A DNA stretch of 50,180 nt from Candidatus Izemoplasma sp. (GTDB taxonomy: Bacteria > Bacillota_I > Bacilli_A > Izemoplasmatales > Izemoplasmataceae). Location: the NCBI GenBank assembly GCA_007131405.1, contig SLQR01000024.1:1-50180 (forward strand), written 5' to 3'. The notes beneath the pieces were generated by a model. It was not told the origin of the DNA. It saw nothing but the letters and a program-made list of their open reading frames with translations, and did not search any database. Position numbers and translations under genes: made by a program. Of this stretch, positions 31,998 to 48,627 are shown one piece after another. Numbering within the stretch: position 1 is the stretch's first letter; each line of letters opens with the position of its first letter.

Positions 31998-32217
31998 ATA
32001 AGTAGAAAGCAATGAAGAGGCTAAGTAACAAATGGATCGATTCAAGCGAGTTGGTGGCTGGTGCAAACCAATACGACCCATTGTGAAATCTCCCTCAGAG
32101 TGGAATAAAACCTTCCCGGCAAACAACCGTTATCTGTTTCGAGTGAGTGTGAAAGCACTAACTAGGGTGGCAACACGGGTATAACAACTCGTCCCTTTAT
32201 TGGGACGGGTTTTTTTA
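31998..32217 (+). promoter_or_regulatory. T-box leader, probably tRNA-Ser specific
   Basis: AGGGTGGCAACACGGG T-box motif at 32164-32179; terminator CTCGTCCC-TTTATT-GGGACGGGTTTTTTT (32188-32217); upstream of serS; UCU or UCC in the apparent specifier region GTGAAATCTCCCTCAGAGTGG. Confidence 0.93.
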
Positions 32218-43955: not shown

Positions 43956-43961
43956 TATTAT

Positions 43962-44182
43962 ATAAATCGATGAACGGATAAGTAGTTTATTTCTCTAAGT
44001 ATAGCGAGCTTGGGACGGTGGAAGCCAAGTCTTATGAATAAACGAATAACACCGGGAGAGATGGAAGAATGAAGTAGACCCATCCGTAGCCTCTGCGTTA
44101 AAGAGTATAAGTGCCGACAATCGTCGGAATTAAGGTGGTACCGCGGATAATTCGCCCTTTTCGAAAGAAATGGGCTTTTTTT
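43962..44182 (+). promoter_or_regulatory. T-box leader, probably tRNA-Asn specific
   Basis: AAGGTGGTACCGCGG at 44132-44146; terminator GCCCTTTTC-GAAA-GAAATGGGCTTTTTTT; AAC triplets in the apparent specifier region GAATAAACGAATAACACC; upstream of asnS. Confidence 0.93.
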
Positions 44183-45585: not shown

Positions 45586-45590
45586 AATAA

Positions 45591-45617
45591 AAAGTGCTGT
45601 AATAAGCACTTTTTTTA
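45591..45617 (+). terminator. Terminator of asnS
   Basis: AAAGTGCT-GTAATA-AGCACTTTTTTT. Confidence 0.8.
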
Positions 45618-45676
45618 TATCTTTTGCAGAAATGGCATTAATTAGGTATAATAAAAATAGGAGCCTTAAGAAGGGA

Positions 45677-46153
45677 ATGATTAAAATTTCTCAACAACAA
45701 AAACGATTATTATCGTATGGAATTTTCTTTGTAAGCATTATTATCTTACTGACAATATTTTTACCGTTGTTACGAATTAATGACTCGACTTACGCAGGTT
45801 ATGAAGTTGCATTCGGTAAAGAACTGATTGATATTGATCCATTTGGACTTGGATCAATAGCAAGTGCAAGATTGCCAATATCGTTCTTTGCGATAATTGC
45901 CTTTTTCTTACCAATTATCGGTGGAATTATCGGTCTCTTTTCACGCGGGATTGCGATTGTTAGCGGAGCATTCTTCTTAATTGCCTTTGTCTTGTTCCTT
46001 GTTCTACCAAATGAAGTTGTGATTGCTTACACGATTGCAGGGACAACCACCACAACTGAAGTGGACTGGTCATTAGCTTTTGGCGGCATTATCGCTGCTA
46101 TTGCGTCGGCGATTGGTGCTGGGTTAAGTTTAGTGTTTGCTCTAAAAAAATAA
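45677..46153 (+). CDS. Uncharacterised membrane protein, about four TM segments
   Basis: Start moved to ATG 45677 behind AAGGGA; several hydrophobic stretches; no family recognised. Confidence 0.7.
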   Translation: MIKISQQQKRLLSYGIFFVSIIILLTIFLPLLRINDSTYAGYEVAFGKELIDIDPFGLGSIASARLPISFFAIIAFFLPIIGGIIGLFSRGIAIVSGAFFLIAFVLFLVLPNEVVIAYTIAGTTTTTEVDWSLAFGGIIAAIASAIGAGLSLVFALKK

Positions 46154-46180
46154 GATGGAAATCTTTCCATCTTATTTTTA
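46144..46180. terminator. Bidirectional terminator between the membrane-protein gene and the convergent micro-ORF
   Basis: AAATAAGATGGAAA-TC-TTTCCATCTTATTTTT. Confidence 0.85.
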
Positions 46181-46181
46181 T

Positions 46182-46280
46182 TTATTTGATTTTGTTTGAT
46201 AGGTAAAATCAATTTGCTGATTGTAATAAGCCTCTAATGACTTCAATACTTTTTTAAATGTACTGCGTTTTTTCATGTAT
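46182..46280 (-). CDS. Putative 32-35 aa basic microprotein (absent from ORF track)
   Basis: Minus strand AAAGGAG then ATGAAATACATGAAAAAACGC...; translation M(KYM)KKRSTFKKVLKSLEAYYNQQIDFTYQTKSNK*; coordinates approximate to a few nt. Confidence 0.5.
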
Positions 46281-46311
46281 TTCATCTCCTTTATCATATA
46301 TACTTCGTTCT

Positions 46312-46376
46312 GGTGGCACAAGAAAGTGAACCAAAACGTGATGTAACAATGTTATTGATCTCACTTTCTCACCACC
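46312..46376 (-). other. Long imperfect hairpin in the leader of the microprotein transcript
   Basis: GGTGGCACAAGAAAGTGA (46312-46329) versus TCACTTTCTCACCACC (46361-46376); nested TAACA-A-TGTTA in the loop. Confidence 0.65.
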
Positions 46377-46436
46377 TATCAGAAATATTTTTCATTGGAG
46401 AAAAGATCAGTTTACATTTCTTACATTTACTTTCAT

Positions 46437-46465
46437 AGTATAAGTGAAAACTTCTTACATGTCAA
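46437..46465 (-). promoter_or_regulatory. Strong SigA-type promoter for the micro-ORF unit
   Basis: Minus strand TTGACA-N17-TATACT. Confidence 0.8.
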
Positions 46466-46485
46466 GTTTAACGCTAGATATAAAA

Positions 46486-46524
46486 TAAAAAAACCTGTAC
46501 AAAATCGCTTTGTACAGGTTTTCT
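46486..46524 (-). terminator. Terminator of the SPFH operon
   Basis: Minus strand AAAACCTGTACAAA-GCGAT-TTTGTACAGGTTTTTTTATTTT. Confidence 0.88.
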
Positions 46525-46536
46525 TTGCATGTTAAG

Positions 46537-47508
46537 TTATTTTTTAGCGGATGATGATTTTGCTTTATCCATAGAAATCTTTTCAGGTTTTTTTAAGTCA
46601 AAAGCTTCCGCAAGTGTCGATGCCATACCAACCATACCTTGCATATCCGATGGGATAATAAGTTTGGTTGCTTGTCCTTCTGCGACTTTCTCCATTGCCT
46701 TAAAGGCTTCGAGACGTAAGAATGCTTCGTCAGCACCGGCTTCTTTAATGAGCCCGATACCTTTAGCGGTTGCAGATTGAACTTTAAGGATAGCTTGTGA
46801 TTTACCTTCTGCTTCTAAGATACGTACTTGCTTCTCACCATCGGCGCGAAGAATTTGTGATTCACGTTCACCTTCGGCGGTAAGAATCGCAGAACGTTTG
46901 TTCCCTTCAGCAATAAGGATGGACTGACGTTTTTCACGTTCAGCACGCATTTGTTTTTCCATCGCTTCACGGATATCTTTTGGCGGAATAATGTTTTTAA
47001 GTTCAACACGATTAATTTTAATTCCCCAAGGATCCGTTGCTTCATCAAGAATTGAGCGCATTCTTTCGTTGATGACATCACGTGAAGTCAAGGATTCATC
47101 AAGTTCAAGATCCCCGATAATATTACGAAGCGTGGTTGCGGTTAAGTTTTCAATCGCTTTGATTGGATAGTTAACCCCGTAAGTGTAAAGTTTTGGATCC
47201 GTAATTTGGAAGAATACTACCGTATCGATCTGCATCGTTACGTTGTCTTTAGTAATAACAGGTTGTGGGTCGAAGTCAACAACTTGTTCCTTGATTGATA
47301 CTTTCATTTTAATGCGATCAACAAATGGCATGAGGAAATGAATTCCGACGTCCCATGTCACGTAGTAACCACCAAGACGTTCGACAATGAATCGATTTGC
47401 TTGGGTAACAATTGTAAAGCGTGTTGCTAAATACACTAAGACAATGATAATGATGGCTAAAGTAACCCAAAATGCTGGATTTTGATAAATGGATAAACTG
47501 TAAAGCAT
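46537..47508 (-). CDS. SPFH domain protein (stomatin/QmcA-like)
   Basis: 323 aa; N-terminal TM, RFIVERLGGYYVTWDVGIHFLMPFVDRI, IIPPKDIREAMEKQMRAEREKRQSILIAEGNKRSAILTAEGE. Confidence 0.95.
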   Translation of the reverse strand: MLYSLSIYQNPAFWVTLAIIIIVLVYLATRFTIVTQANRFIVERLGGYYVTWDVGIHFLMPFVDRIKMKVSIKEQVVDFDPQPVITKDNVTMQIDTVVFFQITDPKLYTYGVNYPIKAIENLTATTLRNIIGDLELDESLTSRDVINERMRSILDEATDPWGIKINRVELKNIIPPKDIREAMEKQMRAEREKRQSILIAEGNKRSAILTAEGERESQILRADGEKQVRILEAEGKSQAILKVQSATAKGIGLIKEAGADEAFLRLEAFKAMEKVAEGQATKLIIPSDMQGMVGMASTLAEAFDLKKPEKISMDKAKSSSAKK

Positions 47509-47536
47509 GAAAAGACCTCCTATAGTTTAATTTTTT

Positions 47537-48190
47537 TTAGAAAGGATATTTAATATCCTCAACGATGACACGTGTTTTTGAGAAATGATCACGTAATGTT
47601 TTTTTGTCGGTTCTTAAGACAATCATGTAAAGGTCAATGATTATACCGAAACCGAGGGTCATGACAAAGTAGAAGTATTTCCAGAAGAATTCACGCAGCA
47701 GAAGCGAAAGGATATTGATGTTCCCTGCTAAACGCAAGCGCATAAGTTTACGGCCAATAGAATGCCCTTTTGTGAGTAGCATGTAGGCGATATGGAATGC
47801 AGCAAAACCGAATACTCCATAGACTATGCTAAAGAATAAGTAACGGTTTCCGACGCCGTAAGCTTGCGGATAATTTTCTTCTGTGTAATGCTCGTTTATG
47901 GCATCGCGTTCATCACGAATGCGGTCGAGTTCGGTGTTAAATTCGGATTCGGTTATTTCTCCGTCTTCGTATTGATCACGAAGCTCATACTCTTCTGTGT
48001 TTAAGTCTCGTAGTTGTTCACTACGATCTTCTTGTAAAACTTGAAACGCTTCGTAGTGAATGTCAAAATCATCAACAGTGCTACGATAAATAGGTGCGGC
48101 GACTAGGGTGAAAGTAAAACTGATTAATGCGGCGATAAAGATGAAATCGGTAAAGAAAGCAATTGAGCGGCGGATTAGGCCTGCGTTCAT
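47537..48190 (-). CDS. RDD family membrane protein with charged helical loop
   Basis: 217 aa; LIRRSIAFFTDFIFIAALI, HSIGRKLMRLRL; charged segment between TM1 and TM2. Confidence 0.88.
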   Translation of the reverse strand: MNAGLIRRSIAFFTDFIFIAALISFTFTLVAAPIYRSTVDDFDIHYEAFQVLQEDRSEQLRDLNTEEYELRDQYEDGEITESEFNTELDRIRDERDAINEHYTEENYPQAYGVGNRYLFFSIVYGVFGFAAFHIAYMLLTKGHSIGRKLMRLRLAGNINILSLLLREFFWKYFYFVMTLGFGIIIDLYMIVLRTDKKTLRDHFSKTRVIVEDIKYPF

Positions 48191-48627
48191 AACTTAACCA
48201 CGATAAGTTTCACGCCTTCGATGGCTAATATTTCAACTTTCTCATCCACAAGAACAATTTCATCACCTGATGTTACAGCGGTCCAAAATTGACCGTCAAC
48301 TTTCACTTCGCCACGTTCACCGGGGCGAACTTCTTTTGTACATGTTGCAACTTTGCCAATTAAACGATCAGCATTGGTATTTACAAGATTAGTTCGGAAG
48401 TAATTTTTTGCAATCGGTCGAACACTTAATAACAATAAAATAGATACGCCAACAAAAGCCCCAATTTGATAGACGACGCCAAACCCGACGATGGCCAAAA
48501 TAAATGCAATAAGTGCACCAATACTGAACCAAACACTGGTTAAGTCCATGGTGTTTATTTCGATAAACGCAGCAATAAGGATAATTGCAAACCACAACAA
48601 GATAATTAATTCAAAATCAAAGCCCAT
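48187..48627 (-). CDS. NfeD family protein
   Basis: 146 aa; N-terminal TM segments, C-terminal OB-fold pattern GKVATCTKEVRPGERGEVKVDGQFWTAVTSGDEIVLVDEKVEILAIEGVKLIV. Confidence 0.92.
   Translation of the reverse strand: MGFDFELIILLWFAIILIAAFIEINTMDLTSVWFSIGALIAFILAIVGFGVVYQIGAFVGVSILLLLSVRPIAKNYFRTNLVNTNADRLIGKVATCTKEVRPGERGEVKVDGQFWTAVTSGDEIVLVDEKVEILAIEGVKLIVVKL

Follow-up and report, generated by a model that had tools for sequence, protein, structure and literature searches.

MntS and MgtS of Escherichia coli and MgtR of Salmonella are small proteins, induced by metals or stress, that modulate membrane transporters. MntS has been treated previously (PMC4361602). In Mycobacterium tuberculosis, an M-box is reported to control a small upstream ORF (PMC12810186). 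Families of bacterial small proteins are catalogued in GMSC (PMC11364881) and sORFdb (PMC11796252), and the gene described here resembles their entries in being a short conserved ORF of the kind often missed in annotation.

The locus lies in a window of 50,180 nucleotides (the whole stretch of DNA analysed) from a Candidatus Izemoplasma sp., and is probably a stand-alone microprotein gene that is under operator control, is conserved in its bacterial family and has a basic product with a single helix. Like MntS, MgtS and MgtR, it has a very small ORF with its own promoter, for which regulation is predicted here, and is usually found near a magnesium transporter gene. Unlike them, the microprotein is basic and not transmembrane, and no sequence relation to them was found; the comparison with modulators of transporters rests on the neighbourhood, an M-box riboswitch and mgtE being near six of the eleven units identified (mgtE was named from its own sequence plus its M-box). 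The M. tuberculosis case (PMC12810186) is similar in that a short ORF lies close to an M-box, but the microprotein ORF is served by a promoter of its own, which lies upstream of the M-box or separate from it, and the unit in the window has no M-box nearby.

A sequence-only reading of the window had described an orphan, self-contained micro-transcription unit on the minus strand, and the elements that it named were all located (Table 1): the promoter TTGACA-N17-TATACT, the long hairpin leader (~154 nt, with 16/18-nt arms and a nested TAACA-A-TGTTA at 46344-46354), AAAGGAG followed by a small basic ORF of 32 codons, the terminator common to the convergent gene, and an 8-codon uORF said to lack a good ribosome-binding site. 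In the expected Shine-Dalgarno (SD) position of this uORF there is CTCC, and the uORF, from its sequence, is probably not translated. The SD of the main ORF stands 9 nt from its start. An alternative start that would give 35 aa is unlikely, because that start codon abuts the SD. When 2.5 kb was scanned, nine sigma-70-like sites were found, a chance-level number (8.0 ± 3.0 expected); the promoter of the unit scored highest (11/12) and the remaining eight scored 9 or 10 of 12. The whole unit is present once in the genome from which the window derives.

Table 1. Positions of the microprotein unit and of the adjoining convergent gene in the window
Feature	Position	Strand	Remarks
Promoter TTGACA-N17-TATACT	46437-46465	-	TTGACA 46465-46460, 17-nt spacer, TATACT 46442-46437
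Conserved ATGAAA / ATGTAA repeats directly 3' of the -10 box	46421-46437	-	Within the extended-pattern match 46421-46465
Leader, about 154 nt	46277-46430	-	Putative transcription start; leader fold z -2.9
Imperfect leader hairpin	46312-46376	-	Arms 46376-46361 and 46329-46312; absent from most homologous units
uORF MKNISDRW, 8 codons	46369-46395	-	No SD
Shine-Dalgarno AAAGGAG	46286-46292	-	AAGGAG at the equivalent place in nearly all other units
Microprotein ORF, 32 aa MKKRSTFKKVLKSLEAYYNQQIDFTYQTKSNK	46178-46276	-	ATG at 46276, stop ends at 46178
Bidirectional intrinsic terminator	46146-46179		15-pair hairpin, common to the convergent membrane-protein gene ending at 46153
Convergent gene, 158-aa multi-pass membrane protein	45677-46153	+	No Pfam family

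The 32-aa peptide used alone as a query gave weak matches in the genomes G016 (E = 0.008) and G005 (E = 0.08), and both were backed by a matching layout of TTGACA promoter, leader, AAGGAG, 35-codon basic ORF and terminator. A profile built from these three sequences retrieved G033, G070, G027 and G019 (E = 3e-5 to 0.04), none of which had contributed to it, and G017, G063, G062 and G026 were added by inspecting promoter matches and the surroundings of a 75-aa gene. The unit is thereby known from eleven genomes of one family, presumably the Izemoplasmataceae, which comprises wall-less bacteria of the Izemoplasma type. Cultured members of this group exist, for example X. coldseepsis zrk13 (PMC8397711). 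Strong peptide matches were confined to this family in a search of 395 genomes of the class, which yielded no convincing unit outside it; a match in G040 was rejected as a member since it falls within a terminator. Peptide-profile and promoter-pattern searches did not detect the unit in four genomes of the same genus, nor was it detected in G025. When the relatives were searched for the unit at the DNA level, the matches were confined to terminator-like sequences and short stretches of low complexity.

The peptides of the eleven units are basic and 30–35 aa long, with E-x-YF and RF at the heart of a common core (ExYF..I..RF). The window peptide has 7–34% identity to its ten homologs. In the columns of its residues Y17, T25 and Y26 the eleven peptides have Y, R and F, respectively, with ≥90% conservation, and the window peptide deviates from the conserved residue at two of these three (T25 and Y26). 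In the closest pair, G033 and G070, 11 codons of the ORF are changed, 10 synonymously and one non-synonymously. Random placement of the changes was never as conservative (0/20,000 trials), and in the other two frames 9/10 of the changes would be non-synonymous. Since the synonymous excess occurs in one frame only, the ORF is read as a translated and selected gene, of which the pattern of codon changes is the mark. The locus has the sequence features of a microprotein gene, namely an ORF of ≤50 aa under purifying selection (codon changes, 11 homologs) and a promoter, ribosome-binding site and terminator of its own. Conservation of the peptide in relatives, which the sequence-only reading had named as a check, is seen in ten further genomes.

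The promoter, too, is characteristic of the units. The pattern TTGACATGWAANNANTTTNCANNTATANTWTG (≤2 mismatches) has one match each in 7 of the 49 genomes of the family, always 5' of a microprotein ORF (7/7); the reversed control gave no match, and among the 395 genomes of the class only five of those same seven genomes were matched. A longer 45-nt pattern extending past the -10 box (≤3 mismatches) gave eight matches in 90 genomes of the order and none in the reversed controls; all eight precede a microprotein-type ORF, seven of them previously known and the eighth that of G026. As the patterns were written from known units, recovery of those units is expected, and the information lies in the lack of other matches and in G017 and G026, which were first located through the promoter and were unlisted by the peptide searches. 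Judged from its sequence, the promoter is a near-consensus sigma-A type that is found only before this ORF family in the genomes searched. With peptide and promoter both conserved, the terms "self-contained micro-transcription unit" and "microprotein" have held up.

Many of the promoters carry ATGAAAA-N1/3-TTTTCAT dyads that overlap or flank the -35 and -10 elements. The dyad with a 3-nt centre often sits in the spacer, with 8/8 pairs in G005, one pair short (centre only) in G019 and partially in most units; the spacer in the window carries a degenerate version of it (ATGTAAGAAGTTTTCAC; 4/8 pairs), and the ATGAAA / ATGTAA repeats are comparable to TATAATATGAAAATAGATGAAA in other units. The position of the dyad varies: G016 and G026 have a 1-nt centre, with ATGAAAAGTTTTCAT lying 5' of the -35 box in G016 and the identical 15-mer just 3' of the -10 box in G026, and G033 has a second near-perfect dyad just 3' of the -10 box. 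The dyad resembles the operator of a repressor, and negative control through it is proposed with moderate confidence from the sequence pattern. TetR was considered as the repressor and rejected; such genes lie 0.4–9 kb away in G005, G016, G019 and G033, with no clear upstream copy of the dyad. A genome-wide scan for the dyad or operator (2 mismatches) was too noisy to reveal other targets.

Control at the RNA level was also considered. The 155-nt leader in the window has a predicted folding energy of -35.6 kcal/mol (z = -2.9), equalled by none of 200 shuffled sequences, and might act as a translational switch in which the leader hairpin and the anti-SD CTCC at 46400-46397 hide the GGAG, possibly until translation of the uORF opens the structure, as in erm-type attenuation leaders. 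Such a switch would complement the microprotein reading, not supplant it. The GGAG is predicted to be 97–99% paired, with a pairing probability of 0.86 for the anti-SD, and the ATG of the uORF adjoins the anti-SD; the succession of uORF, hairpin and (predicted) hidden SD is like that of the erm-type leaders. It differs from them in that the uORF lacks an SD, and the other units do not conserve the arrangement. Moreover, 11% of dinucleotide-shuffled leaders sequester the SD equally strongly, and sequestration was therefore dropped as a special feature of this leader. On this balance the switch appears unlikely. The earlier suggestion that the unit is cis-regulated fits best at the DNA level, through the promoter dyads, and not through SD sequestration, which in the window is not above chance.

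Less probable still is a structured or dual-function RNA, in which the 65-nt hairpin leader would be the functional product and the ORF secondary. Folding of the window sequence favours it, the whole 293-nt unit (z = -4.3, no shuffle equally stable) even more than the leader. Most of the ten homologous units, however, have no such hairpin. Their leaders differ in sequence and length (50–203 nt) and mostly have no significant fold and no common structure; the distances from the -10 box to the ATG in the eleven units are 160 (window), 203, 115, 90, 57, 66, 76, 50, 115, 77 and 167 nt, and the z scores of the homologous leaders are -2.1 in G063, -1.8 in G016 and -1.1 to +1.2 in the rest. In the G033/G070 pair, leader identity is 0.73, below that of the promoter (0.85) and the ORF (0.90). 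No Rfam family matched at gathering score, permissive settings gave chance-level matches only, and the conserved structure with covariation expected of an Rfam-type RNA was not found. A scan of the whole collection with the hairpin arm GGTGGTGAGAAAGTGA gave only scattered, apparently chance matches. An element in G005 (GGAGGTGAGAAACGTT...AACGTTAGCACC) resembles the window hairpin by eye; the best fold of G005 leaves it unused, and two sequences cannot show covariation. The hairpin is not kept in most relatives, and the "structured ncRNA" or "dual-function RNA" of the sequence-only reading was not borne out. We regard the hairpin as most likely a feature added locally in the window copy, one that may tune translation or stability.

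Around the unit in the window, the plus strand carries asnS (named from its own sequence plus the preceding T-box) and the gene for the 158-aa membrane protein, and the minus strand carries genes for SPFH, RDD and NfeD proteins. The latter stand in a row at 46537-48627, with the RDD-domain membrane protein between the usual SPFH/NfeD partners. T-box leaders are present upstream of asnS (43961-44162) and serS (32003-32199), and a purine riboswitch (1537-1637) 5' of a permease-like gene. The convergent asnS/SPFH gap (45586-46536) is a variable site: it holds the membrane-protein gene and the microprotein unit together in the window and an NYN-domain-like gene (domain named by eye) in G001, and is empty, with the genes directly convergent, in G002 and G004 (same genus), G027 and G033. 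Synteny of the unit at this site was accordingly rejected.

In the ten other genomes the usual block consists of the 158-aa membrane protein, the microprotein, M-box/mgtE, a 75-aa two-helix protein and a diguanylate cyclase, sometimes with an M50 metalloprotease within it; membership is incomplete in some genomes, and some contigs end early. The window copy lies outside the usual block, and of the block genes only that for the 158-aa membrane protein adjoins it. The word "orphan" is thus apt in the genome of the window and wrong elsewhere, where the unit stands within a conserved gene block. In six other genomes, homologs of the 158-aa membrane protein are encoded close to the microprotein unit; the family as a whole occurs in 18 of 61 genomes searched, often in two copies per genome. 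Proteins of 65–83 aa with two likely membrane helices and the core LHxRIW...G.IAT..F (L247 9571-9822, L248 9508-9735, L249 1441-1674) adjoin mgtE, the diguanylate cyclase or the microprotein, and matched no Pfam family above threshold. In G019, extra short ORFs with their own SD flank the microprotein ORF upstream and downstream (L207, around 1184-1317 and 1623-1757) and end in VKLNPLTRN / VKLNPLSRN, and G027 has one such ORF downstream, MRTRKARIKERLQRRLANVADQALLVRLHRNHRG (L203, around 1647-1751); a faint resemblance of the C-termini of these ORFs to the main peptide points to local duplication. A fluoride riboswitch (L250 2414-2473) lies about 7.5 kb from the unit in G019.

The neighbourhood also bears on whether the ORF could be an attenuator leader peptide, whose translation would determine whether transcription passes the terminator and enters mgtE or the 75-aa gene. 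In G005, G016, G017, G062 and G063 the ORF is indeed followed by a terminator and then by the co-oriented 75-aa gene. Most units have an intrinsic terminator and lack a large gene that would be transcribed together with the ORF. In G019, G026, G027, G033 and G070, mgtE is the next large gene and comes with an M-box riboswitch of its own. The ORF shows no apparent stretch in which codons for a single regulatory amino acid are repeated. The genes that follow the unit in the window lie on the other strand, leaving nothing to attenuate; no co-oriented gene directly follows the terminator, and an attenuation leader is therefore ruled out there. For the family as a whole we consider this reading very improbable.

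The window peptide was predicted to form one helix (residues 3–31, mean pLDDT 85), is basic (net charge +6), with a basic N-terminus, and has no transmembrane stretch. An amphipathic membrane helix was considered and dropped, as the helical moment was not above that of shuffled versions. For a modelled peptide that is basic, non-transmembrane and not significantly amphipathic, a protein partner is therefore more likely than simple membrane binding. These properties speak against a type I toxin-antitoxin system (a small toxic peptide whose leader inhibits translation, paired with an antisense RNA), which the strong promoter, structured leader and small ORF of the window might recall. The unit is single-copy, no convincing antisense promoter was found (the plus-strand sites within it score 9/12 and are of chance number), and the structured leader is missing in most homologs. 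We consider such a system very unlikely. A chance ORF or decayed gene fragment, which the mere 32 codons and the low identity to the ten homologs might suggest, can be set aside almost entirely, being contradicted by conservation: the homologs share promoter, SD and layout, and the closest pair differs almost purely synonymously.

The microprotein family had no match in Pfam, NCBIfam, PADLOC or PDB sequences, and the window peptide none in PHROGs; FecR_C (E = 0.009), UPF0102 and DUF7202 were sub-threshold matches of one member each and were rejected. Judged by these libraries, the gene is previously unnamed and the family new within the known class of bacterial microproteins; it may already be an unnamed cluster in GMSC or sORFdb.

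For the operator-controlled microprotein gene that we favour, we propose that a putative DNA-binding protein would bind the ATGAAAA-N1/3-TTTTCAT dyads at the -35/-10 region and keep the strong promoter silent until a signal relieves repression. Release would give a burst of the short mRNA and of the peptide, which would most likely be a small subunit that assists or regulates a partner from the envelope, magnesium or c-di-GMP block; in the window species, the hairpin of its own in the leader may tune translation or stability. A role with these neighbouring proteins is weakly indicated and rests on the neighbourhood, which the window copy has lost. More specifically, and as a speculative proposal that we consider doubtful, the target of the new helical family might be MgtE, the neighbouring diguanylate cyclase or the 75-aa two-helix protein, so that a peptide of ~32 residues would link the state of magnesium or of the envelope to c-di-GMP signalling.

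Annotation easily overlooks genes of 30–35 codons. In the present case a peptide profile and a promoter pattern converge on one ORF in eleven genomes, giving a clean, dedicated pair of promoter and microprotein. If the neighbourhood reflects function, the family would allow a connection of a microprotein with magnesium uptake and c-di-GMP to be tested in bacteria without a cell wall.
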